A stretch of DNA of 64,000 nucleotides from Cellulomonas sp. KRMCY2 (lineage in GTDB: Bacteria > Actinomycetota > Actinomycetes > Actinomycetales > Cellulomonadaceae), in assembly GCF_000526515.1 (NCBI RefSeq), contig NZ_JAGF01000001.1, positions 62,001-126,000 of the forward strand, written 5' to 3'. Position 1 is the first letter of the stretch. The number at the start of each line of letters is the position of its first letter. Shown here in pieces: positions 9,991 through 56,816 of the stretch. A model generated the notes under the pieces. It worked only from the letters and a program-made list of their open reading frames with translations. It had not been told where the DNA came from and ran no database searches. The translations under genes and the position numbers were made by a program.

Positions 9991-10057
9991 GGACCGGTCG
10001 GCCGCGGACGCTCCGCATCGCGTGGCACCGGTCTGCGGTCAGGACCCCGGGCTGCGG

Positions 10058-40227: not shown

Positions 40228-40292
40228 CGGACGCCTCCGCTCTCGCACTCTCGAGTCTACGAGCGGGCACCCGGCCTCGGCAGCCCGTTCGG

Positions 40293-40658: not shown

Positions 40659-40804
40659 CGGACGCCTCCTTCGGGCCGGCGCGGTGCCGACCCGAGACCC
40701 ACCGTCGCCCGCCAACCTGGACCCTGGCTGAGCGGATGCCGGACACACCCTGTGACCCGCTCGCGGCCGCCGGATGGGGCACGATGGCGGGCGAGGAGGT
40801 GGCG

Positions 40805-41722
40805 ATGACCGGCACGACGATGCATGACGACGAGCGCGACATCGACGCCGGGCTCGTCCGCCGGCTGCTCGCCGCACAGCTCCCCCAGTGGGCGGGTCTG
40901 CCCCTGACGCCGGTCCGCTCGGCCGGCACCGACAACGCCATGTTCCGGCTCGGCGACGACATGGCCGTGCGCCTGCCGCGGGTCCCCTGGGCCGTCGAGC
41001 AGGTGGCGAAGGAGCAGACGTGGTTGCCGCGGCTCGCACCGCTCCTCCCGTTGGCCGTGCCGGAGCTGCTCGGCACCGGCGCGCCCGGTGCGGGGTACGA
41101 CTGGCCGTGGTCCGTGTACCGGTGGCTCGACGGCGTGGACGCCACCGTCGAACCGGTCGCCGACCTGCACCGCGCAGCCGACGAGCTGGGAGGCTTCGTC
41201 GCAGCCCTGCGTCGGGTCGACCCGACCGGTGGTCCACCGCCCGGCGAGCACAACTCCGGACGAGGGGTCCCGCTCGCGGCGCGCGACACGGCGACGCGGG
41301 CGGCCATCACCTCCCTGGTGGGCATGATCGACACCGACGCGGCGACCGCGGCCTGGGAGGCGGCCCTGCGCGCACCGGTCTGGGACGGGCCTCCGGCCTG
41401 GATCCACGGGGACCTGCACGCCGCCAACCTCCTGGTACGCCAGGGCGAGCTGAGCGCTGTCATCGACTTCGGCTGCCTCGGCGTGGGTGATCCGGCCGGC
41501 GACGTGTCGGCCGCCTGGGTGTTCTGCTCCGCCGGGACCCGCGACACGTTCCGGGCCGCCGCACAGCCGGACGACGCGATGTGGGCACGCGGCCGCGGCT
41601 GGGCGCTCTCCCCGGCACTCATCGCGCTGCCCTACTACCGGACCAGCAACCCCGTCCTTGCCGGCATCGCACGACGGGCGATCGACGAGGTGCTCGCCGA
41701 CCGGGAGCACGCGGCCGGCTGA
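40805..41722 (+). CDS. aminoglycoside phosphotransferase family (APH) kinase
   Basis: The 305-residue cytosolic kinase of the APH/choline kinase fold has an N-lobe VRSAGTDNAMFRLGDDMAVR, the Brenner-type catalytic loop WIHGDLHAANLLV and metal-binding VIDFGCLGVGDPAGDVSAAW. Such genes are common in actinobacteria and are mostly small-molecule kinases of unknown substrate, so drug resistance should not be assumed. ATG 40805 follows GAGGAGG by 5-6 nt. It is divergent from the STAS/V-ATPase operon over 146 bp. Confidence 0.88.
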   Translation: MTGTTMHDDERDIDAGLVRRLLAAQLPQWAGLPLTPVRSAGTDNAMFRLGDDMAVRLPRVPWAVEQVAKEQTWLPRLAPLLPLAVPELLGTGAPGAGYDWPWSVYRWLDGVDATVEPVADLHRAADELGGFVAALRRVDPTGGPPPGEHNSGRGVPLAARDTATRAAITSLVGMIDTDAATAAWEAALRAPVWDGPPAWIHGDLHAANLLVRQGELSAVIDFGCLGVGDPAGDVSAAWVFCSAGTRDTFRAAAQPDDAMWARGRGWALSPALIALPYYRTSNPVLAGIARRAIDEVLADREHAAG

Positions 41723-41789
41723 CGCCCGGGGGCACGACGAGGCGGACGGGGACGGCGCCGACCGAGCCGGTCCGTGTGACGATGACCGC

Positions 41790-42674
41790 GTGAGTCCACT
41801 CTCCCAGCCGAGGGCTGCCGTCGCCCGCGCCCTGCTCACCCGGGTCGCGGGGCCTGAGGCCGACGCGACCCGGGCGCGCATCCACCACACGCCCGGGCCG
41901 CGCCGGTTCGACCCCCGCAGTCCCATCGGGCGCGTGCACGGCGACGCGTCGATGTTCGTCGGGGGCGTGCGGGCCCTGCTCCTGCAGTCGCTGCACCCGC
42001 AGGTGATGACCGCCGTCGCGGACCACTCGCGGTACCGCGCCGACCCGTGGGGCCGCCTGCAGAACACGGCCACCTTCGTCGCGACGACGACCTTCGGGAC
42101 CGACGAGGCCGCGGCACGTGCGGTCGCCATCGTCCAGGCTGTGCACCGCCGCGTGGTCGGCACCACGCCCGACGGTCTGCCGTACGACGCGTCCGACCCG
42201 CACCAGCTGGCGTGGGTGCACGTCTCCGAGGCGGAGAGCTTCCTGCTCGCGCACCAGCGCTTCGGTCGGCGACCCCTGGACCGGGCCGGCTGCGACGAGT
42301 ACGTGGCACAGACCGCCGTCGTCGCGCGGGCGCTGGGGGCGCAGGACCCGCCCGTGACCCTCGCGCAGCTGCGGGCACAGCTCGCCGCGTTCCGCCCCGA
42401 GCTCAGGGGGACCGAGGCGGCCCGCGGTGTCGCGCAGTTCCTGCTGCACGACCCGCCGCTGCCCTGGCCCGCTCGGCCCGCGTACGGCCTGATCACCTCG
42501 GCCGGGCTCGCCCTGCTGCCACCGTGGGCACGACTCGAGCTCGGGCTCCGGGCGCACCCCGCCCTCGACCGGGCGCGGGTGCTCGGCGGCCGGTCGGTCA
42601 CCGCGACGATCCGGTGGGCGCTCGACCCGGTCGACCCTGTGCGCACCGGCCCCGGCGTGGCGAGCCGCGACTGA
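41790..42674 (+). CDS. oxygenase MpaB family protein (DUF2236)
   Basis: The 294-residue helical protein has the family landmarks PIGRVHGDASMFVGGVRALL, LQSLHPQVMTAVADHSRYRA, GRLQNTATFVATTTFG, HQLAWVHVSEAESFLLAHQR and, near the C-terminus, LPPWARLELGL. The conserved histidines and the ER/latex-clearing-like fold suggest heme binding. Relatives include MpaB and rubber oxygenase-like proteins; the substrate is unknown. It begins 68 bp after the APH gene. Confidence 0.85.
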   Translation: MSPLSQPRAAVARALLTRVAGPEADATRARIHHTPGPRRFDPRSPIGRVHGDASMFVGGVRALLLQSLHPQVMTAVADHSRYRADPWGRLQNTATFVATTTFGTDEAAARAVAIVQAVHRRVVGTTPDGLPYDASDPHQLAWVHVSEAESFLLAHQRFGRRPLDRAGCDEYVAQTAVVARALGAQDPPVTLAQLRAQLAAFRPELRGTEAARGVAQFLLHDPPLPWPARPAYGLITSAGLALLPPWARLELGLRAHPALDRARVLGGRSVTATIRWALDPVDPVRTGPGVASRD

Positions 42675-42752
42675 CGCGACCGGGGCCGACCACGTCACTC
42701 GGACGCGTGAACCACGCCGAAGCCTGGCTCGCCCGTGAGCCGCCGGGTTGTG

Positions 42753-42766
42753 ATGCGCTTAAGGTG
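42753..42766 (+). promoter_or_regulatory. candidate LacI operator before the regulator gene
   Basis: ATGCGCTTAAGGTG is identical to the 14 bp at 44019-44032 in front of the transport operon. It lies 22 bp before the LacI start codon (42789) and so would overlap its promoter or leader, fitting autoregulation. Confidence 0.6.
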
Positions 42767-42788
42767 GCACTGTCGAAGGGAGGTGACC

Positions 42789-43910
42789 GTGCCGAAGCGT
42801 CCAACCGTCTACGACGTGGCCCAAGCGGCGGGCGTCTCGATCGCCACTGTCTCGTTCGCCTTCCGTCAGCCCGAACGGGTGCGCGCTAGCACCCGGGAGA
42901 CGGTCCTCGCGGCCGCCCGTGCGCTGAACTACGTGCCCAGCGCCAACGCACGTGGGCTGGCCGACGGACGCACCGGCGCGCTCGGCCTGTACTCCTTCGA
43001 CATGTTCCTCGAAGCGGTCGAGACCGGGGGCGCGAGGCCCGTGAGCGAGGACCCCGGGCCGTTCTTCGGTGCGGACGCGTCCGAACGGGCGTTCGCCGAC
43101 GATGCGGACGCCGAGGACTTCCGGGTGTTCCCGCTCTACGTGGACGAGGTCCAGCGCGGCTTCGAGCTCGAGTGCGCGCGACGCGGCCGCGCGCTGCTGA
43201 TCGGCAGGGGCACGGCCACCGACAGGGCCGGGATCATCGACATCGCGAGCCGGGTCGACGGTCTGGCGGTGTTCCCGGGCGCGAGGTCCGCCGAGCTCAT
43301 CGCCCAGGTGTCGCGTCGGCTGCCCGTCGTCGCGTTCGCGATGCCGTTCGGTCAGGGCGAGCTGCACCACGTGCAGGTCGACAACGCGGGTGGCACCGAG
43401 GCGCTGACCGAGCACCTCGTGACAGTGCACGGCATCACCGACATCGCGTTCGTCGGGGCGCCGGAGATGCCCGACTACGCGGAACGGTTCACCGGCATGT
43501 GTCGCGCCCTCACGCGACTCGGCCTGCCTGCCCCGGACGCCGTCCTCGACCCGACGGCCCTGGTCGACGACAACCCGTTCGCCGTGATCCGGACCCTTGC
43601 CGCATCGGGTCGGCTGCCGCGTGCCCTGGTGTGCGCGAGCGACCAGCACGCGCTCGACCTCATCGAGGTCCTGAGGTCGCTCGGGGTCGACGTCCCGGGC
43701 CAGGTGGCGGTGACCGGGTTCGACGGTGTCGTCGCCGGCCGCCTGTCCGACCCACCCCTGACCACCGTGCGGCAGCCGATGGAGGCGATGGGCCGGCTGG
43801 CCGTCGACATCCTGATGGAGTCCCTCGCGAAGCGGGGGGCTGCAGCGCTCGACCGGACCCTCCCGGTGCGGATGGTCGTCCGTCGCAGCTGCGGCTGCCC
43901 GTCCGCCTGA
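42789..43910 (+). CDS. LacI family transcriptional regulator of the beta-glucan locus
   Basis: The 373-residue regulator has the LacI HTH at residues 5-27 (TVYDVAQAAGVSIATVSFAF), a hinge helix (PSANARGLADGRTGALGL) and a periplasmic-binding-protein-like core with LPRALVCASDQHALDLIEVL, VAVTGFDGVVAGRL and TTVRQPMEAMGRLAVDIL. A 30-residue acidic insertion (about 95-125) sits in the first core lobe. GTG 42789 is chosen because AAGGGAGG lies 6 nt upstream. It precedes the binding-protein operon, and shared CTTAAG operator sites support it as local repressor. The inducer is probably a sophoro-oligosaccharide (inference). Confidence 0.92.
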   Translation: MPKRPTVYDVAQAAGVSIATVSFAFRQPERVRASTRETVLAAARALNYVPSANARGLADGRTGALGLYSFDMFLEAVETGGARPVSEDPGPFFGADASERAFADDADAEDFRVFPLYVDEVQRGFELECARRGRALLIGRGTATDRAGIIDIASRVDGLAVFPGARSAELIAQVSRRLPVVAFAMPFGQGELHHVQVDNAGGTEALTEHLVTVHGITDIAFVGAPEMPDYAERFTGMCRALTRLGLPAPDAVLDPTALVDDNPFAVIRTLAASGRLPRALVCASDQHALDLIEVLRSLGVDVPGQVAVTGFDGVVAGRLSDPPLTTVRQPMEAMGRLAVDILMESLAKRGAAALDRTLPVRMVVRRSCGCPSA

Positions 43911-43980
43911 CCGAGCACCCGCGGCCTGACCGGGCACCCACGGCCTGACCGGGCACCCACGGCCTGACCGGCCACCCGTC
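43905..43980 (+). repeat. four tandem 19-bp repeats after the LacI gene
   Basis: The consensus GCCTGACCGGGCACCCACG is repeated at 43905, 43924, 43943 and 43962; copies two and three are identical, the outer two differ at two to five positions. The stop codon of the regulator lies in the first copy. The array sits directly before the operator cluster. Confidence 0.9.
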
Positions 43981-44018
43981 CGCACCTCCCGCACCGCTCG
44001 GCTTGCGACCTTGAGTCT

Positions 44019-44059
44019 ATGCGCTTAAGGTGCCCCTTAAGGGTCGCTTAAGCGCATAG
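44019..44059 (+). promoter_or_regulatory. triple CTTAAG operator cluster of the beta-glucan operon
   Basis: Three CTTAAG cores at 44024-44029, 44036-44041 and 44047-44052 are 12 and 11 bp apart, about one helix turn each. The middle core is a 10-bp palindrome CCCTTAAGGG, the third CGCTTAAGCG. The outer arms are a perfect 13-bp inverted repeat (44017-44029 CTATGCGCTTAAG and 44047-44059). The cluster lies 55 bp before the binding-protein start, and a TTGAGT at 44011 could be part of the covered promoter. LacI-family operators are palindromes of this size. Confidence 0.75.
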
Positions 44060-44114
44060 ATCGCTGGCGAGGACGGCCAACGGTGGTCGTCGTACTCAAC
44101 GGGGAGGACCAACC

Positions 44115-45374
44115 ATGAACAGAACCATGCGCATCGGCGGGGCCACGATCGCGATCGCCGCGCTCGGGCTCACGGGCTGTGGACGCGGGGACGCCGGCGA
44201 CGGCGGCGGCACCGAGGAGCCGGCCGCAGCCGTGAGCGAGGGCGCCGCGACCGGCAGCGTCGAGGTGTGGGCGATGGGGACCGAGGGCGAGAAGCTGGGC
44301 GACTTCGCCGCGGCCTTCGTCGCGGAGAACCCCGACGTGGAGATCAACGTCACGGCCATCCCCTGGGATGCTGCCCACGACAAGATCGCCACCGCGATCG
44401 CCGGCGGTCAGACGCCGGACGTCTCGATGATCGGCACCACCTGGATGGGCGAGTTCGCCGCGACCGGCGCGTTCGACCCCACACCCGATCTCATCGACAG
44501 CTCGCAGTTCTTCGAGGGCGCCTGGGGCAGCACCGACGTGGGTGGCACGCACTACGGCGTGCCGTGGTACGTCGAGACCCGCGTCCTGTACTACCGCACG
44601 GACCTCGTGCCCGAGCCGCCGACCGACTGGGACGGCCTGACGGCCATGGCGCAGGACATGCAGGCCGCCGGCGCCGAGTGGGGCATCAACCTGCAGCCCG
44701 GTCAGACCGGCGCCTGGCAGACCTTCATGCCGTTCGCCTGGCAGGCCGGCGCGCAGATGACCAACGAGGACGCCACCGAGTTCACGATCGACTCCCCCGA
44801 GTTCGTCGAGGCGCTCACGAAGTACCAGTCCTTCTTCACCGACGGCCTGGCACCCACCGAGCTGCCGCAGGGCTCGCTCGAGCCCGGCTTCATGGCCGGC
44901 ACCATCGGCTCCTTCGTCTCCGGCCCCTGGCACGTCGGCATCCTCGAGGAGACCGACCCGGCCGGGATGGCGAACGTCGGCCTCGCCCCGCTGCCTGCCG
45001 GAGCCAAGGAGGCGTCGTTCATCGGTGGCGCCAACCTCGCCGTCTTCAAGGACGCCGAGAACCGCGACGCGGCCTGGAAGTTCGTCGAGTGGCTGAGCCG
45101 GCCCGAGGTGCAGGTCGAGTGGTTCACGACAGTCACCGACCTGCCGTCGGTCGCCTCCGCGTGGGACGACCCGGCCATCGCCGACGACGAGTACCTCAGC
45201 GTGTTCGGCAAGCAGCTCGAGACAGCCGTCGCGCCGCCCTCGATCCCGACCTGGGAGGAGGTCGCGAGCGTGATCGACACCGAGCTGGAGCGGCTGACCA
45301 AGTCCGGCGCCGACCCGCAGGAGGTCGCCACCACCATCCAGGAGCAGGCAGCGGCCATCGGTACTGGTCTCTGA
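44115..45374 (+). CDS. ABC transporter sugar-binding lipoprotein
   Basis: The 419-residue cluster-B-type solute-binding protein has signal peptide and lipobox LGLTGC (C22), a Gly/Glu linker, then VEVWAMGTEGEKLGDFAAAF, IPWDAAHDKIATAIAGGQTP, DVSMIGTTWMGEFAATGAFD and the hinge GVPWYVETRVLYYRTDLV. Trp/Tyr-rich stretches suit sugar stacking. By context it should capture beta-1,2-gluco-oligosaccharides made by the secreted enzyme encoded downstream. It is the first gene of the operon, followed directly by two permeases. Confidence 0.92.
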   Translation: MNRTMRIGGATIAIAALGLTGCGRGDAGDGGGTEEPAAAVSEGAATGSVEVWAMGTEGEKLGDFAAAFVAENPDVEINVTAIPWDAAHDKIATAIAGGQTPDVSMIGTTWMGEFAATGAFDPTPDLIDSSQFFEGAWGSTDVGGTHYGVPWYVETRVLYYRTDLVPEPPTDWDGLTAMAQDMQAAGAEWGINLQPGQTGAWQTFMPFAWQAGAQMTNEDATEFTIDSPEFVEALTKYQSFFTDGLAPTELPQGSLEPGFMAGTIGSFVSGPWHVGILEETDPAGMANVGLAPLPAGAKEASFIGGANLAVFKDAENRDAAWKFVEWLSRPEVQVEWFTTVTDLPSVASAWDDPAIADDEYLSVFGKQLETAVAPPSIPTWEEVASVIDTELERLTKSGADPQEVATTIQEQAAAIGTGL

Positions 45375-45375
45375 G

Positions 45376-46389
45376 ATGTCCGCGGACACCGTCGTCCGGC
45401 CCGAGGCTGCTGCCCCGGGCCGGGCGGGGCCCCCGAAGACCCGCCGGCACGCTCCGCTCTACTGGCGCCACACCCGGGCGGCGTGGGGCTTCGCACTGCC
45501 CTTCGTGCTGCTCTTCACGGCGTTCACGGCGGGTCCGGTGCTCATGTCGCTCGCGATGGCCGTCACCGACCTCCGGAGCAAGGACCTGCGCAACCCGTTC
45601 GCGGTGAACTTCGTCGGCATGGAGAACTTCGTCGCGGTCTTCCAGGACCCGATCTTCCGCAAGGCCGCCGTGAACACCGCGTACTTCGTCCTGGTGGGCG
45701 TGCCGCTGACCCTCGGGCTCTCGCTCGGGATCGCCGTCGTGCTCAACTCGGGCATCACCCGCCTGAAGACCCTCTTCCGGGTCGGCTACTACATGCCCGT
45801 CGTGACCAGCATCGTCGCCGTCGCCGTCGTCTGGCGCTTCCTGCTGCACCCGGACAGCGGCCTCATCAACGAGGTGCTCCGCCTCGTCGGCATCGAGGGC
45901 CCCAACTGGCTCGGCAGCACCACCTGGGCCATGCCGTCGATGATCGCGATGGCGACCTGGCGGTCGATCGGCACGCTCATCATCATCTTCCTGGCCGGCC
46001 TGCAGGGCGTACCGACCTCGCTGCACGAGGCCGCCGCCCTCGACGGCGCAGGCGCCTGGCAGCGCTTCCGCTTCATCACGCTGCCGACCATGCGTCCGAC
46101 GCTGCTCTTCGGCGCCGTGATCACCGGCATCGGCTACGTGCAGTTCTTCGAGGAGCCCTTCGTCATGACGCAGGGCGGGCCGCTCAACAGCACGCTCTCC
46201 GTCGCGTTCCACACGTACAACCAGTTCGGCTTCGGCAACTACGGGTACGCGGCCGCGATGAGCTACGTGCTCTTCCTCGCCGTCGTCGTGCTGGCGCTCG
46301 TGCAGTTCCGACTGCTCGGTGACCGGGACACGCCCAAGCGCCGTCGACGCAAGCCGACGCCCGCCGCCAGTCAGGAGATCGGACGATGA
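45376..46389 (+). CDS. ABC sugar permease (MalF/UgpA type)
   Basis: The 337-residue membrane protein has six helices; N-terminal SADTVVRPEAAAPGRAG tail, then RAAWGFALPFVLLFTAFTAG, and the cytosolic EAA loop SLHEAAALDGAGAWQRFRFI for contact with an ATPase. It starts 1 nt after the binding-protein stop and overlaps the next permease by 4 nt (ATGA). No ATPase gene is present in the locus; a shared MsiK-type ATPase encoded elsewhere is expected, as is common in actinobacteria. Confidence 0.93.
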   Translation: MSADTVVRPEAAAPGRAGPPKTRRHAPLYWRHTRAAWGFALPFVLLFTAFTAGPVLMSLAMAVTDLRSKDLRNPFAVNFVGMENFVAVFQDPIFRKAAVNTAYFVLVGVPLTLGLSLGIAVVLNSGITRLKTLFRVGYYMPVVTSIVAVAVVWRFLLHPDSGLINEVLRLVGIEGPNWLGSTTWAMPSMIAMATWRSIGTLIIIFLAGLQGVPTSLHEAAALDGAGAWQRFRFITLPTMRPTLLFGAVITGIGYVQFFEEPFVMTQGGPLNSTLSVAFHTYNQFGFGNYGYAAAMSYVLFLAVVVLALVQFRLLGDRDTPKRRRRKPTPAASQEIGR

Positions 46390-47288
46390 GCACACACACC
46401 GACCACGTGTCCCTGCCCCCCGCCGAGCCGGCGGGCCCCCGGCAGCGCCGGACCAAGGAGCACCCTCTGGGTGAGGCGCGCCCGAACCTGTTCGCCTACC
46501 TGTTCCTCGGGCTCGGCCTGATCATCGTGATGAGCCCCTTCGTGTGGATGGCGCTCAGCTCGGTCAAGGGCGAGGGCGAGATCCGCCGGGTGCCCCCGAC
46601 CTGGTGGCCCGAGGCGCCGACGCTCGACAACTTCCGCGAGCTCTTCGACCGCCTCGACTTCCCGCAGTTCTTCACGAACTCGACCCTCGTGGCGGTCGTC
46701 GTGACGCTCGGCAACCTCGTGTTCTGCTCGATGCTCGGCTACGTCCTTGCCAAGTTCGACTTCGCGGGCAAGACGCTGCTCTTCCGGCTCGTGCTGGGCA
46801 CGCTGATGATCCCCGGGATGGTCACCCTGGTGCCGCTGTTCGTGCTCGTCGCGAACATGGGCCTGGTCAACACGTACGGGGGCCTCATCCTGCCGTTCCT
46901 GGCCGCCCCGTTCGGGGTGTTCCTCATGCGGCAGTTCTTCCTCGCCATGCCGGACGAGCTGATCGACGCCGCGCGCGTCGACGGTGCGAGCGAGGCCCGC
47001 ATCTTCGTCCAGGTCGTCATGCCCCTGGCCAAGCCCGCCCTGGCGACCCTCGCGATCCTCACCTTCCTGGGGTCGTGGAACAACTTCCTGTGGCCGCTGG
47101 TCGTGGCCACCACCGAGGACAAGTACACGCTGCCCGTGGCGCTGGCTCTCTACAGCACCGGGCAGAACCAGACCGACTACGGCCTGCTGCTCGCCGGTGC
47201 CGTGGTCGTCGTCGTACCCGTGCTCATCGTCTTCCTGCTCCTGCAGCGCTACTTCGTGCAGGGCGTCGCGATGACGGGCATCAAGTGA
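46386..47288 (+). CDS. ABC sugar permease (MalG/UgpE type)
   Basis: The 300-residue second permease has NLFAYLFLGLGLIIVMSPFV at the first helix, the EAA loop ELIDAARVDGASEARIFVQV and a C-terminal LLQRYFVQGVAMTGIK ending, which is the classical MalG-like end. Its stop overlaps the GH94 start (TGATG). Confidence 0.93.
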   Translation: MSTHTDHVSLPPAEPAGPRQRRTKEHPLGEARPNLFAYLFLGLGLIIVMSPFVWMALSSVKGEGEIRRVPPTWWPEAPTLDNFRELFDRLDFPQFFTNSTLVAVVVTLGNLVFCSMLGYVLAKFDFAGKTLLFRLVLGTLMIPGMVTLVPLFVLVANMGLVNTYGGLILPFLAAPFGVFLMRQFFLAMPDELIDAARVDGASEARIFVQVVMPLAKPALATLAILTFLGSWNNFLWPLVVATTEDKYTLPVALALYSTGQNQTDYGLLLAGAVVVVVPVLIVFLLLQRYFVQGVAMTGIK

Positions 47289-50200
47289 TGGCTGCGGCCG
47301 ACGGACCGCCGTGGGTGCTGCAGGGGGCAGCGGCGTCCCAGGGGGCAGGTGGTCTGCGTGCCGTCGTCGTCGACGGCGGAGCACTCGCGAGCCTCGGGAC
47401 GGCCGGGCTCGAGCTCGTCCAGCACGCGGCCTCGGCCTTCGAGCCCGGTCAGCTGCAGCTGTGGGTCCGCGACCGCGCCACCGCGCGCACCTGGCCGATG
47501 CTCGGGGCGGGCTCCGGCTCGCGGGTCGGGCCCCCGGACGGCCCGGGCGGCGCGCTCGTCGTGCACGGGCAGGCGGACGATGCCGACGGCCGGCTCGCCT
47601 GGCGGGCGACCCTGACCCTCAGCGCCGACCGGCCCGCGTGGGCGTGGCACGTCGAGGTCACCAACGAGGGGGCGGGTACGCGTGAGGTGGACCTCGTCCA
47701 CACGCACGACGTCGCCCTCGCCGCACCGGGTGCCCTGCGGGCCAACGAGCTCTACGTCAGCCAGTACCTCGACGTCACGCCGCTGCACGGCGAGGGGTTC
47801 GGCACGGCCCTGGCCGTGCGGCAGAACCTCGCTCAGGCCGGGCTGCACCCGTGGTGCGTCCTGGCCGCCGGCTCCCCGGTGGTCGCCTGGGCCAGCGACG
47901 CGCTCGACGTCCACGGCTGGTCCGCCCGGGCCGGCCGACCACCCGAAGGACTGGCGCAGGACCTCCCGTCCCGACGGCGCCAGCACGAGCACACCCTGGT
48001 CGCGCTGCAGACCGGTCGGGTCCACCTGCGTCCCGGTCAGTCGCTGCGGACGTCGTTCGCCGGGCTCCTGGTCGACGACCACCAGGCCGCGACGTCCGAC
48101 GCCGACCTGCCCCGGGTCGCCGAGGCGCTCGAGCTCGCCCGGGCGACAGCGCCCTGGCCCGAGTCCGGTGCGACCACGGGCGCGCCGCCGGTCGCCGGCA
48201 CGCCCGGCACGCCCGCACCGGCCGGAGGATACGACCGCGGCCGGGAGCTGCCGGTCCGACCGCTCACCGAGGACGAGCTGCACGACCGGTGGCCGGCTCC
48301 GTGGCGCGCGGTCGAGCGCGACGACGACGGCACGCTCCTGTCGTTCTTCACCGACGACGACCTGCACGTGGTCACCCGTGCCAAGGAGCTCGGCTCGCTC
48401 CGACCGCACGGCACGATCCTGCGCACGGGTGACACCGCCACCCCGGACCCGTGCGCGCTGACGGTCACCGCCTGGATGACCGGGTCGCCGTTGTCCTACC
48501 TGACCCGCGGGCACGCGTCGAACCATCCCGTGCTCACGACGGTCCGGGGCTACCTCGGGCTGCACCGCGCCTACGGCCTGCGCGTGCTCGTCGAGGTCGA
48601 CGGCGGCTGGCGGCTGCTCGACCTGCCGTCCGCCTTCGCGATGACGCCGGACTCGGCGCGGTGGGTCTACGCCGTCGAGCCCGACGGGAGCGACCCGGTC
48701 GGCGTGCTCGAGATCACCACCCACGCACCGGCGGACGACCACCGGATCGACCTGTCGGTACGGGTCACGTCGGGTCCCGCCCGGCGCATCCTGCTGGCCC
48801 TGCACCTGGCCGCCGCTGCCGACCCCCTGCCCGCCCCGCCGGACGCCGTCGGGGCCGAGCAGCGCGCGGACGGCGTCGTCGTGCGGCTGGACGCCGGTGG
48901 CGACGACCCCGGCCGCGAGCTCGTCCTGGAGTCGCAGGACGTCGAGACGCTCGGCGACGACCGGCTGCTGTTCGACGACGGCACCCGGCGCAGCTCCACG
49001 GTCGTCACGCTGGTCAGCCGGACCACGACGGCTGTCACCGCCCGGCTCCGGGTCGAGACGGCCGACGACGGCGCAGCGCTGCCGTCTGCCGGTCCCTACC
49101 ACTGCGCTCGGCGGGAACCGACCGGCCCGACCGTGGGCGCAGCCTGGTGGACCGACGTCACCCGGCTCCGGGTCACCGCCGGCGACGAGGTCGAGCCGCT
49201 CGCCGTGAGCCTGCCCTGGCTGGTCCACGACGCCTTCGTGCACTTCCTGGCCCCTCGGGGTCTCGAGCAGTTCACCGGTGGTGCCTGGGGCACCCGTGAC
49301 GTGGCCCAGGGTCCGCTCGAGCTGCTCCTGGCCCTCGACCGGCTGCCGGATGCCCGTGACCTGCTGCTCAGGCTGTTCGCGGCGCAGAACACCGACGGCA
49401 CCTGGCCGCAGGCGTTCGGCTTCCTGCCCGGCGACGAGCACTTCCGCCTCGAGCCACCGCACGGCGACGTCCTGCACTGGCCCGTCCTGGCCGTCGGCCG
49501 GTTCCTCCAGGCGGCCGGTGACGCCTCCCTGCTCGAGGAGCCCGTGCACTGGTACACCCCGGCCGGCGAGCCGGAGGTGCCTGTCTCGACCGTGCGCACC
49601 CACCTGGAGCGCGCGCTCGACCAGGCCCGCGCCGACGTCCTGCCCGGCACCCGGCTGGTGGCCTACGGCCACGGCGACTGGAACGACTCGCTGCAGCCCG
49701 CCGACCCCGCGATGGCCCGGACGATGACCAGCGCGTGGACCGTGACGCTGCACCACCAGGCGCTGCGCACGCTCGCTGACGGCCTGCAGACCGTCAGCGG
49801 CTACGGCGACCTCGTGGTCGAGCTGCGCGACGAGGCAGCCGGGATCGCCGCGGACCTGCACCGGTACCTCGTGGTCGACGGCGAGCTCGCCGGCTACGCC
49901 CAGCTCGACCGCCCGGACGCCGACCGGGAGGTCGCCGTCCGGCGCCTGCTCGTCCACCCCCGGGACACCGAGACCGGCCTGCGCCACGGGTCGCTGCAGA
50001 TGATCCACGCGCTCGGCGACGGCCTGTTCGACCCGGACCAGGCAGCGCACCACGTCGCCCTGGTGCGCGAGCACCTCATGGGGGTCGACGGCGTGCGGCT
50101 GTTCGACCGGCCACCGGCGTACCACGGCGGGACGATGCGGCACTTCCAGCGCGCGGAGACGGCGACCTTCGTGGGTCGCGAGATCGGCCTGATGTACGTC

Positions 50201-50773
50201 CACGCGCACCTGCGCTGGTGCGAGGCGATGGCGCACTGGGGCGACGCGGAGGCACTGTGGCTGGGGCTGCAGCAGGCGCTCGCCCCGGCCGCCGCCCAGG
50301 TGGTCCCCGGTGCTCGCCGCCGCCAGGCGAACGCCTACCCGTCCAGCTCCGACGCCGCAGTCCTGGACCGCGAGGACTTCGCCCTGCGGTACGACGAGGT
50401 GCTCACCGGGGCGACCGGTCTCGAGGGTGGCTGGCGCATCTACTCGTCCGGTCCGGGCGTGCTCCTGCGGATCATCACCCAGTCCCTGCTCGGGGTCCGG
50501 CGCCGCGGGACGACAGTCCTGCTCGACCCCGTCCTGCCGGCCCGCTTCGACGGCCTGACGGCTGACGTCCCGCTCGACGGCGGCGTGCTCCGGGTGCGCT
50601 ACCTGGTCGGGCACCGTGGGCACGGGCCGACCGAGGTGCGCCTGGCCGGCCGAGCCCTGCCCGCGACGCGGGCGGAGAACCCGTACCGCCCGGGCGGCCT
50701 CGTGGTCGACCTCGGCGACCTCGCCGAGGCGCTGCGCCCGGGTGGTCCCGAGCTGGAGGTCCACCTGCCGTGA
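47288..50773 (+). CDS. GH94 glycoside phosphorylase, probable 1,2-beta-oligoglucan phosphorylase
   Basis: The 1161-residue cytosolic enzyme has a beta-sandwich N-terminal half (LYVSQYLDVTPLHGEGF, LAQAGLHPWCVLAAGS) and an (alpha/alpha)6 catalytic half with FTGGAWGTRDVAQGPLELLL, DGTWPQAFGFLPGDEHFRLE and YGHGDWNDSLQPADP, where D797 is the expected proton donor (GH94 DWND motif). Length and layout match the 1,100-residue SOGP group (Listeria Lin1839 type) rather than cellobiose phosphorylases (about 800). It would split sophoro-oligosaccharides with phosphate to glucose 1-phosphate and a shorter chain. The neighbouring GH3, transporter and secreted glucanase support this. Confidence 0.82.
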   Translation: MAAADGPPWVLQGAAASQGAGGLRAVVVDGGALASLGTAGLELVQHAASAFEPGQLQLWVRDRATARTWPMLGAGSGSRVGPPDGPGGALVVHGQADDADGRLAWRATLTLSADRPAWAWHVEVTNEGAGTREVDLVHTHDVALAAPGALRANELYVSQYLDVTPLHGEGFGTALAVRQNLAQAGLHPWCVLAAGSPVVAWASDALDVHGWSARAGRPPEGLAQDLPSRRRQHEHTLVALQTGRVHLRPGQSLRTSFAGLLVDDHQAATSDADLPRVAEALELARATAPWPESGATTGAPPVAGTPGTPAPAGGYDRGRELPVRPLTEDELHDRWPAPWRAVERDDDGTLLSFFTDDDLHVVTRAKELGSLRPHGTILRTGDTATPDPCALTVTAWMTGSPLSYLTRGHASNHPVLTTVRGYLGLHRAYGLRVLVEVDGGWRLLDLPSAFAMTPDSARWVYAVEPDGSDPVGVLEITTHAPADDHRIDLSVRVTSGPARRILLALHLAAAADPLPAPPDAVGAEQRADGVVVRLDAGGDDPGRELVLESQDVETLGDDRLLFDDGTRRSSTVVTLVSRTTTAVTARLRVETADDGAALPSAGPYHCARREPTGPTVGAAWWTDVTRLRVTAGDEVEPLAVSLPWLVHDAFVHFLAPRGLEQFTGGAWGTRDVAQGPLELLLALDRLPDARDLLLRLFAAQNTDGTWPQAFGFLPGDEHFRLEPPHGDVLHWPVLAVGRFLQAAGDASLLEEPVHWYTPAGEPEVPVSTVRTHLERALDQARADVLPGTRLVAYGHGDWNDSLQPADPAMARTMTSAWTVTLHHQALRTLADGLQTVSGYGDLVVELRDEAAGIAADLHRYLVVDGELAGYAQLDRPDADREVAVRRLLVHPRDTETGLRHGSLQMIHALGDGLFDPDQAAHHVALVREHLMGVDGVRLFDRPPAYHGGTMRHFQRAETATFVGREIGLMYVHAHLRWCEAMAHWGDAEALWLGLQQALAPAAAQVVPGARRRQANAYPSSSDAAVLDREDFALRYDEVLTGATGLEGGWRIYSSGPGVLLRIITQSLLGVRRRGTTVLLDPVLPARFDGLTADVPLDGGVLRVRYLVGHRGHGPTEVRLAGRALPATRAENPYRPGGLVVDLGDLAEALRPGGPELEVHLP

Positions 50774-52968
50774 GCGACCGACAGTGGACGGCCGCCGACC
50801 GCCCGGTCGCCGAACGCGTCAGCGCGCTGCTCGGGGCGATGACCCTCGAGGAGAAGGTCGGCCAGCTGCACCAGGTCGTCAACCCGGACCCCGTGCGCGA
50901 CGCCACGGCCCTGGCCGCCGGTTCCTTCGGCTCCTGCATCGTGGCCAGCGGCGAGCACGCCGGCAACGTGCGGGATGCCGGCGCCCAGGCGCACGGCGTC
51001 AACGCGCTGCAGCGGGCCGCCGTCGAGACGTCGCGCCTGGGCATCCCGCTGCTGGTCGCGCGGGACGTGATCCACGGTCACCGGACGGTCTTCCCCATCC
51101 CGCTCGGGCAGGCGGCCTCGTTCGACGCGGACCTGGTCCGGCGGTGCGCGCGGGCCGCGGCACGCGAGGCCAGCGCGGACGGCGTGCGCTGGACGTTCGC
51201 CCCCATGGTCGACATCGCGCACGACCCGCGGTGGGGTCGGGTGGCCGAGAGCTGGGGCGAGGACCCGTGGCTGTCCGCACACCTGGGCGCGGCCGCCGTC
51301 GAGGGGTTCCAGGGTGGCCCTGGCGGGGCGGGGCTCGCCGAACCGGACAGCCTGGCCGCGTGCGCCAAGCACTACGTGGGCTACGGCCTCGTCCAGGGCG
51401 GCCGGGACTACGCCGAGGTCGACGTCGGCCTGTTGACCCTGCACAACCGCCACCTGCGCCCCTTCGCGGCAGCCGTCGACGCGGGTGTCGCCACGGTGAT
51501 GACCGCCTTCCACACGCTCGACGGGACGCCGATGACGGCGCACGCAGGGCTCGTGCGCGGGCACCTCAAGGCCGACCTCGGCTTCGCGGGCGTCGTGGTC
51601 AGCGACTGGGACGCCGTCGGGGAGCTCGTCCTGCACGGCGTCGCCGCGGACACCCGGGAGGCGGCCGCCCTCGCCCTCCTCGCCGGGGTCGACGTCGACA
51701 TGGTCACCGGGGCGTACCGGGCCCACCTGGCCGGACTGGTCCAGGACGGCCGGCTGACCCAGGGGCTCGTGGACGACGCCGTCGCTCGGGTGCTGACGGT
51801 CAAGCTCAGGCTCGGGCTCTTCGAGGACCCGTACACCGACCCGGCTCGTGCCGCGACCGTCCAGCTCACCCCCGACCACCGCGCTCTGGCACGCGAGGCG
51901 GCGGCCGGCGCGACGGTGCTGCTGCGCAACGACGGCGTGCTGCCGCTCGTCGTGGGCCCGGGCGGAGCACGCCACCTGCACGTGACCGGACCGCTCGCCA
52001 CGGCACGCGCCGAGCTGTTCGGCACCTGGACCCTCGACGGACGCCCCGAGGACGCCGTCACGATCGCCGACGCCGTGCGCGAACGCTTCGCCGGCGACGG
52101 GACGACGGTGACCGTCGACGACTGCCGCTTCCTCGACGAGACGCTCGTCGCGGCACGCGTCGCCGACGTCGTGGTGGCCTGCGTCGGCGAGCACCCGATG
52201 CGCAGCGGTGAGGCGAACTCGGTGACCTCGGTGGACCTGCCACCTGGCCAGCTCGAGGCCCTCGAGGCGCTCGCCCGGGTGAGTCGCCGCCTGGTCGTCG
52301 TGGTCCTGTCGGGGCGCCCGCTGGCCCTGGAGCGCCTCGAGCACGTCGGCGCGGCGCTCCTGCTCGTCTTCCACCCCGGTGTCGAGGGCGGCCACGGCAT
52401 CGTGGACGTGCTGGCCGGGGACGTGCCGCCGCGCGGCCGGCTGCCGGTGACGCTGCCACGGTCGACCGGACAGGTCCCCCTGCACCACGACCACCTGCCG
52501 ACCGGCCGGCCCCTCGACCCGGCCGGCCCGGTCGGGCGCTACCGCGACCACCGGGACACCCCGCTGCACCCGTTCGGCTTCGGGGCCGGCTACTCGGAGG
52601 TGACCTACGGCCCGGTCGGGCTCTCGTCGCCGACGCTCGCGCCAGGAGGAACCTTGCAGGTCAGCGCCCGGGTCGCGAACGTCGGGGCGCGACCGGTCGC
52701 CGAGACGACCCAGCTGTACGTGCACGACCTCGTGGCACGGGTCTCCCGACCGGTGAGCGAGCTGGTGGGCGTCCGACGGGTCGAGCTGGCCCCGGGCGAG
52801 GCCCAGGACGTCACGTTCGACCTCGACGCAGGAGATCTCGCCTACCTCGACGCGCACGGCCGGCCGTGCAGCGAGCCGGGGACCTTCACGATCCGGATCG
52901 CCCCGCACGCCGGCGGCGGCACCACCACCTCCTTCGAGCTGCTCGCGGGAGGTGCGGAGAGCACCTGA
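50770..52968 (+). CDS. GH3 beta-glucosidase
   Basis: The 732-residue intracellular enzyme has a TIM-barrel with DVIHGHRTVFPIPLGQAASF, AKHYVGYGLVQGGRDYAEVD and nucleophile GVVVSDWDAVGEL (D279), the C-terminal sandwich with PLALERLEHVGAALLLVFHP and GRLPVTLPRS, and a fibronectin-III-like end (TTQLYVHDLVARVSRPVSEL). It has no signal peptide. The start GTG 50770 overlaps the GH94 stop. The pairing GH94-GH3 mirrors the Listeria beta-1,2-oligoglucan genes; here it should release glucose from sophorose and short oligomers. Confidence 0.92.
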   Translation: MSDRQWTAADRPVAERVSALLGAMTLEEKVGQLHQVVNPDPVRDATALAAGSFGSCIVASGEHAGNVRDAGAQAHGVNALQRAAVETSRLGIPLLVARDVIHGHRTVFPIPLGQAASFDADLVRRCARAAAREASADGVRWTFAPMVDIAHDPRWGRVAESWGEDPWLSAHLGAAAVEGFQGGPGGAGLAEPDSLAACAKHYVGYGLVQGGRDYAEVDVGLLTLHNRHLRPFAAAVDAGVATVMTAFHTLDGTPMTAHAGLVRGHLKADLGFAGVVVSDWDAVGELVLHGVAADTREAAALALLAGVDVDMVTGAYRAHLAGLVQDGRLTQGLVDDAVARVLTVKLRLGLFEDPYTDPARAATVQLTPDHRALAREAAAGATVLLRNDGVLPLVVGPGGARHLHVTGPLATARAELFGTWTLDGRPEDAVTIADAVRERFAGDGTTVTVDDCRFLDETLVAARVADVVVACVGEHPMRSGEANSVTSVDLPPGQLEALEALARVSRRLVVVVLSGRPLALERLEHVGAALLLVFHPGVEGGHGIVDVLAGDVPPRGRLPVTLPRSTGQVPLHHDHLPTGRPLDPAGPVGRYRDHRDTPLHPFGFGAGYSEVTYGPVGLSSPTLAPGGTLQVSARVANVGARPVAETTQLYVHDLVARVSRPVSELVGVRRVELAPGEAQDVTFDLDAGDLAYLDAHGRPCSEPGTFTIRIAPHAGGGTTTSFELLAGGAEST

Positions 52969-53011
52969 CACGGACCGATCGACCGATGACGTTCGACGAA
53001 GGGACACCCCC

Positions 53012-54565
53012 ATGACCAGACCCCGGCGTTCCCGCATGACGGCACTGGCCGTCGCTGCGCTGGCCTGCACCGCACTCATCGCCCCGTCGGCCCCGGCCGT
53101 CGCCGGACGTGGAGGCGGAGGCGGGCACCATGACGACCGCGCGACGCTCCTCAAGTACGCCACGGACACCTGGGCCTCGTTCGACGCCATGGTGGATCCC
53201 GCCACCGGGCTGCCCGCCGACAACGTCTCGGGCGACCTCGACCCGGCGAGCCGGAGCGGCTACACCTCGCCCACCAACATCGGCGCCTACCTGTGGAGCA
53301 CCGTCGTCGCCCGCGACCTCGGCATCATCACGCGCAGGGACGCGCGCGACCGCATGACGCAGACCCTCGGGACCGTCGCCGCCCTCGAGCGGCACGAGGA
53401 CTCCGGGATGTTCTACAACTGGTACGACGAGGGGACAGGCGCCAAGCTCACCACCTGGCCCACCGACGGGAGCACCGTCTACCCGTTCCTGTCCAGCGTC
53501 GACAACGCGTGGCTGGCGACCGCCCTCGTGCTCGTGGGCAACGCCGAGCCCCGGCTCCGCGACGAGGCCGAGGCCATCCGCTCGACCATGGACTTCGGCT
53601 TCTACTACGACCCGCAGGTGCGCCAGCTGCGTGGCGGGTTCTGGGACCAGCAGCCCGCCGACGGGGCGGCCGTGCTCGACAACTATCGGGATCGCGGACC
53701 GGACGTCTGGTACACCGGCCACCACTACGGGACCCTGAACACCGAGCCCCGGATGGCCAGCTACCTCGGCATCGCGTGGGGGCAGATCCCGCCCGAGCAC
53801 TACTTCGCGATGTTCCGGACCTTCCCGGACGCCTGCGACTGGAGCTGGCCCGAGCAGCGGCCGGTCGGCCAGTGGGAGGAGTACCTCGGGGTGCCCGTGT
53901 TCGAGGGCGCCTACCGCTACCGCGACATGCAGATCGTGCCGACCTGGGGCGGCAGCATGTTCGAGGCGCTGATGGTGGACCTCTTCGTCCCGGAGGCCGA
54001 GTGGGGCCCGCGCAGCTGGGGCGTCAACCACCCGCTGACGGTCCGGGCCCAGATCGAGCACGGCATGGATGAGGCCGGCTACGGCTACTGGGGCTTCTCC
54101 CCGGCGAGCAACCCGGACGGCGGCTACCGCGAGTACGGCGTCGACGCGATCGGGATGGAGCCCAACGGCTACACCTCCGACCAGGAGCGCACCGTCGTCG
54201 ACCCGGGCTGGGACGACCCGGCGTGCACCCGTGCGCCGAGCACGCCCGCTGCCTACGGGGAAGGCGTCGTCACGCCGCACGCCTCCTTCCTCGCCCTGCC
54301 GTACGCGCACGACGACGCGCTCGCCAACCTGGACAAGATGGACACCGAGCTCGGCGCGTACGGACCGGGTGGCTTCTACGACTCGGTCGAGGTCAGCAGC
54401 GGCACGGTCGCGGAGCGGTACCTGTCCCTCGACCAGGGCATGGTGATGGCGGCCATCGGCAACGAGCTGCGCCACGACGCGGTCCAGCGGTACGTCATCC
54501 GCGGCCCGATCCAGCAGGTGATCAAGCCGCTGCTGGGCATCGAGGAGTTCAACGCCGCCGGGTGA
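53012..54565 (+). CDS. secreted PF10091/GH144-like enzyme, probable endo-beta-1,2-glucanase
   Basis: The 517-residue protein has a signal peptide (RRSRMTALAVAALACTALIA, cleavage near APAVAG) and an (alpha/alpha)6-type domain with the PF10091 pattern: TSPTNIGAYLWSTVVARDLG, YNWYDEGTGAKLTTWPTDGS, SVDNAWLATALVLVG, VPTWGGSMFEALMVDLFVPE, GYGYWGFSPASNPDGGYREY and GVVTPHASFLALPYAHDDAL. In the GH144 endo-beta-1,2-glucanases this fold cuts linear beta-1,2-glucan. Relatives have been split into further families, so a profile search is needed to name the family. It is the last gene of the operon, 43 bp after GH3 and followed by a strong hairpin; it should feed the importer. Confidence 0.78.
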   Translation: MTRPRRSRMTALAVAALACTALIAPSAPAVAGRGGGGGHHDDRATLLKYATDTWASFDAMVDPATGLPADNVSGDLDPASRSGYTSPTNIGAYLWSTVVARDLGIITRRDARDRMTQTLGTVAALERHEDSGMFYNWYDEGTGAKLTTWPTDGSTVYPFLSSVDNAWLATALVLVGNAEPRLRDEAEAIRSTMDFGFYYDPQVRQLRGGFWDQQPADGAAVLDNYRDRGPDVWYTGHHYGTLNTEPRMASYLGIAWGQIPPEHYFAMFRTFPDACDWSWPEQRPVGQWEEYLGVPVFEGAYRYRDMQIVPTWGGSMFEALMVDLFVPEAEWGPRSWGVNHPLTVRAQIEHGMDEAGYGYWGFSPASNPDGGYREYGVDAIGMEPNGYTSDQERTVVDPGWDDPACTRAPSTPAAYGEGVVTPHASFLALPYAHDDALANLDKMDTELGAYGPGGFYDSVEVSSGTVAERYLSLDQGMVMAAIGNELRHDAVQRYVIRGPIQQVIKPLLGIEEFNAAG

Positions 54566-54599
54566 TCGGCGGCTGACCGGCACGGCACCGGCAGGTGAC

Positions 54600-54644
54600 C
54601 CGCGGGGCCGGGTGCGACGCGATGCGCTGCACCCGGCCCCGCGG
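54600..54644 (+). terminator. 16-bp perfect hairpin ending the beta-glucan operon
   Basis: CCGCGGGGCCGGGTGC (54600-54615) pairs perfectly with GCACCCGGCCCCGCGG (54629-54644) around a 13-nt loop, 34 bp after the glucanase stop and 86 bp before the converging phosphoesterase stop. It can act in both directions. Confidence 0.8.
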
Positions 54645-54730
54645 CTGCGTCCGCCGTCCCCGGTCGCGCGACGTCGTCCGCAGCCCGGTCGCCGAGATCG
54701 ACGGCACCGCCCGCTGACGGCCGCCCGGTC

Positions 54731-56671
54731 TCAGGGGCCGGCCGGCGGCACCGCGAGGAGATCGTCCAGCCGCAGGGTGATCGGCGTGTTCGTCGCCGAG
54801 GTCGACAGGTAGCTGTTGATCCCGATCGAGCCGGCCACCTGGAACGCCGCGGTCGCATCGGTCGTCGATGCCTGCCAGGTGCTCGGCTCGGGCTGACCGG
54901 CCTTCCACACCCGGGCGCGGAGCGTCGTCGGGTTCGTCCCGCTGACCTGCATCCGGACGCGGATCGTATCCCCGGGGCCGTACGTCAGCCCGGCCAGGAC
55001 GGCGCTCGGGACCAGTGTCGTCTCGGTGCTGCCGGTCTTGCGCGCAAGCGCGAGGGCGACCGAGCCGTCGGCCCGCAGCCGGACGTTGGCCCGGTACTCG
55101 CCCACTCCGGCCACGCGGCGGCCGCCCACCCACAGATAGAGGCCGCCGCCGGTGGGGACCTTGTCGATGGTCAGGGCGAAGGTCAGGTCCGTGGCGGACG
55201 ACGAGACCGCCGGCAGCGAGACGTCCGGCCCGGAGCCCGGGGTCGGCAGCCGGATGATCCCCTTGCCGTCCGTGACGGCGTAGTTGGAGGCGCTGCCCGT
55301 GGCGCGCCAGGCGCCACCGGTCTCGGCGGTGCCCAGTCCCGTGGCCACGGTGCGGCTGAACGTGTCGGCGGCGAAGGGCACCGGGCCCGACGCGGTGGGC
55401 GTCACGGTGCGCGTGGTGCTGGCCGAGGCGCCGTCGTCGTCGATCACGGTGAGAGTCACGGTGTAGGTGCCGCCGGTCGCGTACTGGTGCGTCGCCGTGA
55501 CGCCGGAACCGGTGGTGCCGTCACCGAAGTCCCAGCCGTAGGACGCGATCGTGCCGTCCGGATCGCTCGACCCGGACGCGTCGACGGCGCAGTCGAGCTG
55601 GGTGCACGACGTTGTGAGAGCCGCCGAGGGCGGGATGTTCTGGGGTGGTCCGCCGGCACCGATCGTGAAGGCGTCGGTGAAGGTCCCACCGGATGCACGA
55701 ACGAATTCGGCCGACAGCGAGGTCGCCGTGACCTGCACGTCCAGCACCCCCCAGGTGGCCGTGTCCAGTCCTGAAGCCGCCGCGAAGTACGGCGCGTCGG
55801 GGTCCGCGGGGAAGACCGGGCGCTGGTCGATACCCCCCGTCCCTACGGTGGCGAAGACCGTGCCGGCACCCTTGGCCAGCTCGGTGTCGGCGTCGGCTAT
55901 GCAGTCCGGGTCCGCGACTCCAGGCACCAGCGCGGCGCACCCGGCGCCCTGTGCAAGCTGCTTGGTCCGCTGGTACAGGTGCTCGTGACCGCTCAGCACC
56001 AGGTCGACCTTCTTGGCCACGAGGAGGTTGAGCAGGTCGGCACCCGAGTCGCACCCGTACTGCCCGATCGACAGGCACGGCTTGTGCATCCCGACAACGA
56101 CCCACGGGATGGCCGCGGCCCGCGCACCGTCGATCGCTGCAGCCGTCCAGGTGTACCGCGAGCTCCCGGCGGTGTACTGGTAGGTCCCGTCCGGGAAGTC
56201 CAGGCCCGGCGAGACCATGACGAAGCGCACCAGCGGATCGGTTGCCGGAACGTCGACGTACCACTGCCGGCCGTAGGTCCCCACGAGTCCGGGGAGCTGG
56301 TTCGGCAGGCAGGCCGAGAAGTCGTTGATGTTGCCGTTGATCCCGTCCGACTCGTGGTTCCCCGCCACCAGCTCGAACGCGGAGCCGGCTCCCACGTACC
56401 CGGTGACGAGGTCGCACCAGGCCTGCTCGGTGCCGGTCGCGGCGTACGAGAGGTCACCGAGCGCGAGGTTGAGGTCGGGGTCGATCTGGCCGATGGTGCC
56501 GAGCACGGCTCTGGCGTTCGGGTTGCTGGCGTAGTCGCCCGCCGCGGTGAAGCGGAGCGTCGCCTCCCCGGCGACCGCCTGCGGGACCGGGGCTCCTGCC
56601 GCGAGCCCCGTCAGGACCAGCGCACTGGCGGCGGCTCCTGCGGTCACGATGCGTGCGATGTGCCGAACCAT
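54731..56671 (-). CDS. secreted metallophosphoesterase with PKD and C-terminal sandwich domain
   Basis: The 646-residue exported protein has a signal peptide (VRHIARIVTAGAAASALVLT, ending near AVAGEA), a calcineurin-like phosphoesterase domain with all metal motifs (AAGDYAS, LALGDLSYA, VAGNHES, VVGMHKP, SGHEHLYQR), a PKD domain (about 355-435: SGSSDPDGTIASYGWDFGDG) and a C-terminal jelly-roll-like domain (about 445-640: LYLWVGGRRVAGVGEYRANV) that may bind a polysaccharide. It resembles purple-acid-phosphatase-like secreted enzymes of actinobacteria. ATG 56671 follows GGGGAGG. Its stop converges on the beta-glucan operon terminator. Confidence 0.88.
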   Translation of the reverse strand: MVRHIARIVTAGAAASALVLTGLAAGAPVPQAVAGEATLRFTAAGDYASNPNARAVLGTIGQIDPDLNLALGDLSYAATGTEQAWCDLVTGYVGAGSAFELVAGNHESDGINGNINDFSACLPNQLPGLVGTYGRQWYVDVPATDPLVRFVMVSPGLDFPDGTYQYTAGSSRYTWTAAAIDGARAAAIPWVVVGMHKPCLSIGQYGCDSGADLLNLLVAKKVDLVLSGHEHLYQRTKQLAQGAGCAALVPGVADPDCIADADTELAKGAGTVFATVGTGGIDQRPVFPADPDAPYFAAASGLDTATWGVLDVQVTATSLSAEFVRASGGTFTDAFTIGAGGPPQNIPPSAALTTSCTQLDCAVDASGSSDPDGTIASYGWDFGDGTTGSGVTATHQYATGGTYTVTLTVIDDDGASASTTRTVTPTASGPVPFAADTFSRTVATGLGTAETGGAWRATGSASNYAVTDGKGIIRLPTPGSGPDVSLPAVSSSATDLTFALTIDKVPTGGGLYLWVGGRRVAGVGEYRANVRLRADGSVALALARKTGSTETTLVPSAVLAGLTYGPGDTIRVRMQVSGTNPTTLRARVWKAGQPEPSTWQASTTDATAAFQVAGSIGINSYLSTSATNTPITLRLDDLLAVPPAGP

Positions 56672-56816
56672 GTGGACCTCCCCGGTCGCGGCCGACGCCG
56701 TCTCTCCGTGGTACCCCATATCAGGACAAAAGGGAACAGCTGGCGTCGGCCGAATCCTGGGACCGGTGCCACCGGAGGTGACACGATGGGCACCCGAGAA
56801 GAGGGCCGGTGACGCG

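Follow-up and report, generated by a model that had tools for sequence, protein, structure and literature searches.

A probable beta-1,2-glucan utilisation locus in Cellulomonas sp. KRMCY2 with a GH193 enzyme, a Lin1841-like importer and a SOGP-type phosphorylase

The window is a 64,000-nt stretch of Cellulomonas sp. KRMCY2 (positions 62,001–126,000 of contig NZ_JAGF01000001.1), and the genome around it is one contig of 4.5 Mb. Seven genes on the plus strand at positions 42789–54565 very probably form a beta-1,2-glucan utilisation locus that extends from polymer cutting through import to inner breakdown. They encode a LacI-family regulator, a sugar-binding lipoprotein, two permeases, proteins of glycoside hydrolase (GH) families 94 and 3, and a secreted PF10091 enzyme. 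This is the gene set listed in an earlier note on this DNA, and all seven proteins have the expected domains. For three of them the nearest characterised or solved relative has been studied on beta-1,2-glucans: Lin1841 for the binding protein, LpSOGP for the GH94 protein and SkSGL for the PF10091 enzyme. A single PF10091 protein and a single SOGP_2nd protein were found in the genome, and both are encoded in this locus. The sequence strongly supports the beta-1,2-glucan reading of the earlier note, with corrections on the family of the secreted enzyme, the transcript, the terminal hairpin and the extent of novelty.

In the proposed pathway, a GH193 endo-beta-1,2-glucanase outside the cell would cut the polymer to sophoro-oligosaccharides, which the Lin1841-like lipoprotein would bind and the two permeases would import. 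Import would draw its energy from a shared ATPase of the MalK/MsiK type whose gene lies outside the locus. The GH94 phosphorylase would then use phosphate in the cytoplasm to convert the oligomers to glucose 1-phosphate, down to sophorose, and the GH3 beta-glucosidase would split sophorose to glucose. The LacI repressor, presumably freed by the imported sugar, would control a six-gene operon through an operator-like pair at 44017–44059 and its own gene through a site at 42752. Such a locus would represent a compact route from polymer to glucose 1-phosphate in an actinobacterial genus, for a bacterial polymer that has roles in symbiosis and virulence. It would also connect GH193, a new family, within one pathway to a phosphorylase that conserves bond energy.

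The secreted enzyme and the phosphorylase

The last gene (positions 53012–54565, plus strand) encodes a 517-aa protein with a Sec-type signal at the N terminus, as judged by eye. Its only Pfam matches are PF10091, a 'putative glucoamylase' model (expectation value, E, 2.4e-13), and DUF3131. The earlier note described a secreted PF10091/GH144-like enzyme. The PF10091 part of this description holds, but sequence comparison places the protein with GH193, not with GH144 or GH162. Over 482 aa it shares 58.5% identity with SkSGL from Sanguibacter keddieii (genome G019), the representative of GH193, a family defined together with GH192 and GH194 in a paper that also discusses its closeness to GH189 (PMC12102758; papers cited here by PMC number were available in part, and statements taken from them refer to those parts). 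SkSGL is an inverting hydrolase and was inactive on 12 other polysaccharides tested (PMC12102758, Table 1). The window enzyme is thus nearest to a characterised beta-1,2-glucanase and not to the glucoamylase-like proteins, which are uncharacterised. In a tree of GH193 proteins, which holds no GH144, GH162, GH189, GH192 or GH194 rows, SkSGL and the window enzyme fall together in one starred set of 81 rows, from which two distant rows are separate. A C-terminal Ig-like domain in SkSGL (PMC12102758) is a difference from the window enzyme.

The general acid Glu and the candidate base Asp of SkSGL (E246 and D160) have counterparts in the window enzyme at E245 and D164. The absolute numbering published for SkSGL is counted from a start based on the authors' own sequenced DNA (PMC12102758) and is not reproduced by the reading frame in G019. 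The spacing of the conserved Asp and Glu in the G019 protein is 86 residues, equal to the published 246–160 spacing. D164, E245, F317 and P364 are invariant in all 28 aligned sequences. F317 aligns by eye with the Phe that ends the EeSGL1 motif WDGAYF; the clan residues in XcSGL are F286 and Y367. Y372 and Y387 are likewise invariant, and without superposition the clan Tyr is assignable to either. An AlphaFold model (alignment A2; mean predicted local distance difference test score 83.9) shows the beta-1,2-glucanase clan fold, and none of the best 20 Foldseek rows falls outside the beta-1,2-glucanases, the cyclic glucan synthases and the PF10091 'putative glucoamylases'. TiCGS ranks first with VIA-align (Z 45.0). 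The VIA-align list contains no SkSGL chain; a predicted SkSGL structure was used in PMC12102758. The identity to SkSGL, the conserved Asp, Glu and Pro residues and the fold match therefore assign the protein to GH193, with a predicted endo-beta-1,2-glucanase activity.

Membership in GH144 or GH162 was considered and rejected. In the profile search the nearest solved sequences belong to cyclic beta-1,2-glucan synthases, in their cyclisation domains. Structures of PF10091 rank behind these and include EeSGL1 and, weakly, CpSGL, which has an E of 9e-6 versus 3e-37 for the GH189 domains. TfSGL has no row at E up to 1.

The GH94 protein (positions 47288–50773, plus strand) is 1161 aa in length and matches SOGP_N (3.4e-44) and SOGP_2nd (3.1e-31). 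The Pfam model of the GH94 catalytic domain shows no match at 0.001, and GH94_b-supersand scores 22.8 bits, slightly below its cut-off of 23. The 1,2-beta-oligoglucan phosphorylase LpSOGP of Lachnoclostridium phytofermentans (5h3z) matches with an E of 2.3e-135 in an alignment over residues 66–1140, versus only 7e-5 to 8e-4 for cellobiose phosphorylases. As far as sequence can tell, this argues against an enzyme that acts only on cellobiose or laminari-oligomers. Sixteen LpSOGP residues that form the catalytic acid, subsite -1, the phosphate site and subsites +1/+2 were taken from PMC5309861, and 15 of the 16 have identical counterparts, including D760, R907, R916, Q621 and Y1004. The catalytic acid D760 corresponds to D800. 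The sole difference is G623, which is Thr in the window protein. R955, R964, Q661, Y1052, N153 and Y156 correspond to LpSOGP residues that contact or shape the +1/+2 subsites, to which the sophoro specificity of LpSOGP has been attributed (PMC5309861). No signal peptide is seen by eye. By its domains and residues the GH94 protein is of the SOGP type, the layout that the earlier note gave it.

Import, the inner beta-glucosidase and regulation

The sugar-binding lipoprotein (positions 44115–45374, plus strand, 419 aa; PF01547, 3e-42) has an LTGC lipobox, found by eye. Its nearest solved relative is Lin1841 (5ysb, E 4.9e-69), and the next match is at 3.3e-61. The two permease genes of the ATP-binding cassette (ABC) type follow on the same strand at 45376–46389 and 46386–47288 (PF00528, BPD_transp_1, 4.7e-15 and 9.3e-23). 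There is no ATPase gene within the locus. A search with PF17912, which detects MalK-type ATPases only, finds one in the genome, at approximately 677.9–679.0 kb. Beside it are a DUF4032 gene and otsA/otsB-like genes, whose domains are those of trehalose synthesis, and none of the three scanned genes next to it is a permease. This single MalK-type ATPase away from the permeases supports the view, put forward before, that import must borrow an ATPase, and it fits a shared MsiK-like ATPase.

The GH3 protein (positions 50770–52968, plus strand, 732 aa; PF00933, 1.5e-70; PF01915, 3.5e-39) is a predicted beta-glucosidase of the JMB19063/BglX/Lin1840 group. Its solved matches include JMB19063 (3u48, E 6.1e-152, rank 1) and Lin1840 (4zoa, E 2.7e-138, rank 11). 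An alignment by eye to JMB19063 shows that the nucleophile Asp, the acid/base Glu and the +1 Arg are kept, within SDW from 278, SGEA from 479 and TGRP from 578 (the +1 Arg is Arg572 in the Lin1840 type and Arg587 in JMB19063). No signal peptide is seen by eye.

The LacI-family regulator (positions 42789–43910, plus strand, 373 aa) matches PF00356 (2e-14) and PF13377 (1.6e-28) in a scan run on the protein from an upstream start at 42735. Other start candidates upstream of 42789 are at 42750, 42753 and 42783. The GTG at 42789 is preceded by GGGAGGTGA and is the likely start, because the start called earlier, 42753, sits on an operator-like site. This site, around GATGCGCTTAAGG (42752–42765, no strand assigned), lies 5' of the LacI start and shares GCGCTTAA with the pair at 44017–44059 (no strand assigned). 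The pair, CTATGCGCTTAAG-17 nt-CTTAAGCGCATAG, consists of two inverted copies of CTTAAGCGCATAG on either side of a 17-base spacer; its stem has a z of -5.4, and it probably represents LacI binding sites 5' of the importer and enzyme operon. The 12-mer TTAAGCGCATAG, with one mismatch at most, is found at only two places in the 4.5-Mb genome, both within the pair, and no wider LacI regulon is seen by this search, whose scope does not extend to the site 5' of LacI (more than one mismatch to the 12-mer). The 8-mer GCGCTTAA/TTAAGCGC, counted on either strand, has three copies in the window, all in the locus, and one copy in 1.40 Mb of control loci (L041–L111). TTAAGCGC is present upstream of the binding-protein gene in six of the six relatives examined (L033–L037 and L039). 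This rarity and conservation point to a LacI that is specific to the locus and to a likely promoter between LacI and the binding-protein gene.

Within the six-gene run that starts with the binding protein and ends with the PF10091 enzyme, the gaps are 1, -4, -1, -4 and 43 bp, and the distance from LacI to the binding-protein gene is 204 bp. A single operon that includes LacI had been proposed. The tight packing agrees with this for six genes, but LacI, with 204 bp and the operator pair between, probably has a separate transcript, so a better description of the arrangement is a transcript of six genes and, apart from it, a LacI gene that would regulate itself. The hairpin 3' of the last gene (54568–54658, plus strand) is as strong as claimed (-71.4 kcal/mol, z -5.0) but is not a canonical terminator: it has no T-run, and a terminator scan of 42600–55000 gives zero sites. 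No RNA element reaches the Rfam gathering score in 40000–57000. Positions 43905–43977 also contain a tandem repeat with a unit of 19 bp (3.8 copies, 94% match), which crosses the LacI stop into the intergenic region.

Distribution, exchangeable inner enzymes and alternative explanations

In a survey of 200 genomes of the family, with E limits of 1e-10 for GH193 and 1e-30 for SOGP, GH193 is found in 60, SOGP in 45 and both in 34 (Fisher 3.7e-13). In the genus itself the same six of 19 genomes have both. A class-wide draw shows GH193 in 44 of 394 genomes (E up to 1e-30); the figures for SOGP cover the family only. The closest three named relatives by the PF10091 protein, among the matches listed, are Actinotalea species.

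Gene neighbourhoods were compared in 80 named GH193 loci, which are the best 80 of at least 574 confirmed candidates and lean towards the window. Neighbours were called by tblastn bit-score thresholds within the DNA available around each locus; the queries were the proteins of the window, two GH39 proteins and one GH1 protein. Matches too weak for the threshold (e.g., the L090 importer) count as absent, and several loci stop at contig ends, where a missing neighbour is a weak absence. A binding protein and both permeases are near GH193 in 58 of the 80 loci. The other neighbours, in overlapping classes, are GH39 (36), GH1 (19), SOGP (9) and GH3 (8); in 12 loci none of these neighbours is above the thresholds. 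The gene order of the window from binding protein to GH193 is found in six loci (L033–L037 and L039), which are all six close relatives that span it, and LacI is upstream in five of the six. In L112, from a Dermatophilaceae metagenome-assembled genome (MAG), SOGP and GH3 are placed after GH193. The commoner arrangements have GH193 directly after permease 2, or after GH1. From this adjacency, importer and GH193 appear to belong together, and SOGP plus GH3 to be the variable part.

A comparison with the GH193 tree shows few changes of neighbour label relative to the means of shuffled labels: 2 vs 8.5 for SOGP plus GH3, 2 vs 13.5 for GH1 and 3 vs 18.9 for GH39. In this comparison the truncated L040 is omitted, L038 is labelled SOGP plus GH3 though its truncated contig shows GH3 alone, and five rows are unlabelled: L054, where GH39 is at a distance of 4.4 kb, and L080, L100, L102 and L103, where GH1 is at distances of 2.9, 2.9, 5.6 and 10.6 kb. 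SOGP plus GH3 is found in the window's clade plus one distant case. This looks like a fixed core of importer and glucanase with inner enzymes that are swapped, the commonest being GH39, the others GH1 or SOGP plus GH3.

Some loci have other arrangements. L080 and L100 (Cellulosimicrobium funkei) have GH193, importer genes on the opposite strand, and both GH1 and SOGP matches within approximately 11 kb, i.e., both inner routes. Two GH193-like proteins of L115 and L116 (G013 and G090) are 35–36% identical to that of the window, form a separate deep branch and may represent a second subgroup; in G013 an SOGP gene is approximately 11 kb from the GH193-like gene. L120 (positions 4634–12577; G141, same family) has a window-like binding protein, permeases and SOGP with GH3 matches in several pieces, and is perhaps a partly decayed version of the locus or a sequencing fault.

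The GH39 partner is the best lead from this comparison, which points to a large GH39 group. It is a GH39-like (PF01229) protein of approximately 600 aa, mostly directly downstream of GH193, and its 36 loci include one from a Chloroflexi MAG. Examples are L078 (11476–13269), L091 (11470–13344) and L051 (11484–13313). A Pfam check of the protein in three loci gives 6e-81, 1.4e-86 and 3.9e-77; all three have the motif FEVWNE, and no signal peptide is seen by eye. No report that links GH39 to beta-1,2-glucan or to GH193 was found in the open-licence literature, which was covered in part. The chances are about even that GH193 and the Lin1841-type importer form a conserved outer module with three cytoplasmic back ends, namely GH1, SOGP plus GH3 (at two places in the GH193 tree) and the GH39 of approximately 600 aa, in both Actinomycetota and Chloroflexota. 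These GH39 proteins would then represent a new class of glycosidases for beta-1,2-gluco-oligosaccharides.

Several observations weigh against the beta-1,2-glucan reading, and some of them favour particular alternatives. No sigma-70-like promoter is found in 42600–55000. The best solved match of the GH3 protein is JMB19063 and not Lin1840, it scores below the NCBIfam BglX cut-off (582 vs 666), and its top matches bear generic names. Lin1840 itself is about equally active on laminaribiose and sophorose (PMC4757417); the GH3 protein is therefore weak evidence on linkage and does not fix it. These GH3 data would suit a locus that serves another beta-glucan, such as laminarin-type beta-1,3-glucan or cello-oligomers, with the GH94 protein and the secreted enzyme shifted in specificity. 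This is very unlikely given the 15 LpSOGP residues kept, among them the six +1/+2 counterparts, the weak cellobiose phosphorylase matches, and the inactivity of the closely related SkSGL on the 12 other polysaccharides tested (PMC12102758). The nearest solved sequences and folds of the secreted enzyme are not those of a hydrolase but of GH189 cyclisation domains (E 3e-37 and 3e-32; Z 45 and 40), as would be expected if the protein were a transglycosylase similar to GH189, with a role in cyclising or reshaping beta-1,2-glucan. A GH189 identity was rejected: the nucleophile of GH189, E1442 in TiCGS (PMC10834661), falls by eye on the invariant P364. In addition, SkSGL inverts, and the surrounding genes are catabolic in appearance, which leaves this the least probable of the alternatives.

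A third alternative, also very unlikely, is a chance pairing of two uptake modules: an operon of the Listeria type for sophoro-oligosaccharides (LacI to GH3) and, downstream of it, an unrelated glucanase. The 43-bp gap 5' of the PF10091 gene is the longest in the run from the binding protein to GH193, and G141, with its importer genes, SOGP and GH3 pieces, is not among the GH193 carriers. In the family, 11 of 200 genomes have SOGP without GH193 and 26 have GH193 without SOGP, and the Fisher statistic ignores shared ancestry. In S. keddieii the SOGP and SkSGL genes are far apart, and the 18 kb around the SkSGL gene (L113, G019) contain no importer or SOGP match. Chance is nevertheless slightly less probable than a different substrate: the commoner loci join GH193 to permease 2 or GH1 and vary in SOGP and GH3, and every close relative that spans the stretch between binding protein and GH193 has the window's gene order there. 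The beta-1,2-glucan utilisation locus remains by far the preferred explanation.

Comparison with known systems

Two published clusters bear on the novelty of this locus. In Listeria innocua, lin1838–lin1843 include the SOGP Lin1839, the GH3 protein Lin1840 and the binding protein Lin1841 (PMC3960220, PMC4757417), which agrees with the co-occurrence of SOGP, GH3 and binding protein in Listeria that the earlier note stated. This cluster resembles that of the window in LacI, SOGP, GH3, a sophoro-oligosaccharide-binding protein and transporter genes. The available parts of these papers name no secreted polymer-cutting enzyme for it, and the window locus adds GH193 and is actinobacterial. In Streptomyces griseus, SGR_2422–2427 contain GH193, a Lin1841-like importer and GH1 in one cluster (PMC12369401). 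Here the likeness is in the binding protein, the transporter genes, GH193 and the actinobacterial host; the difference is the GH1 beta-glucosidase (SGR_2426), and the available part of that paper mentions neither SOGP nor GH3 for the cluster. Because this cluster of GH193, importer and GH1 is already published, the novelty is smaller than had been claimed. No description of SOGP and GH193 in one cluster was found in the partly covered open-licence literature, including the available part of PMC11842490. Each part is known, as is the kind of locus, and the combination was not found described; the surprise to a specialist would be moderate. The locus in Cellulomonas sp. KRMCY2 brings the Listeria and S. 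griseus sets together.

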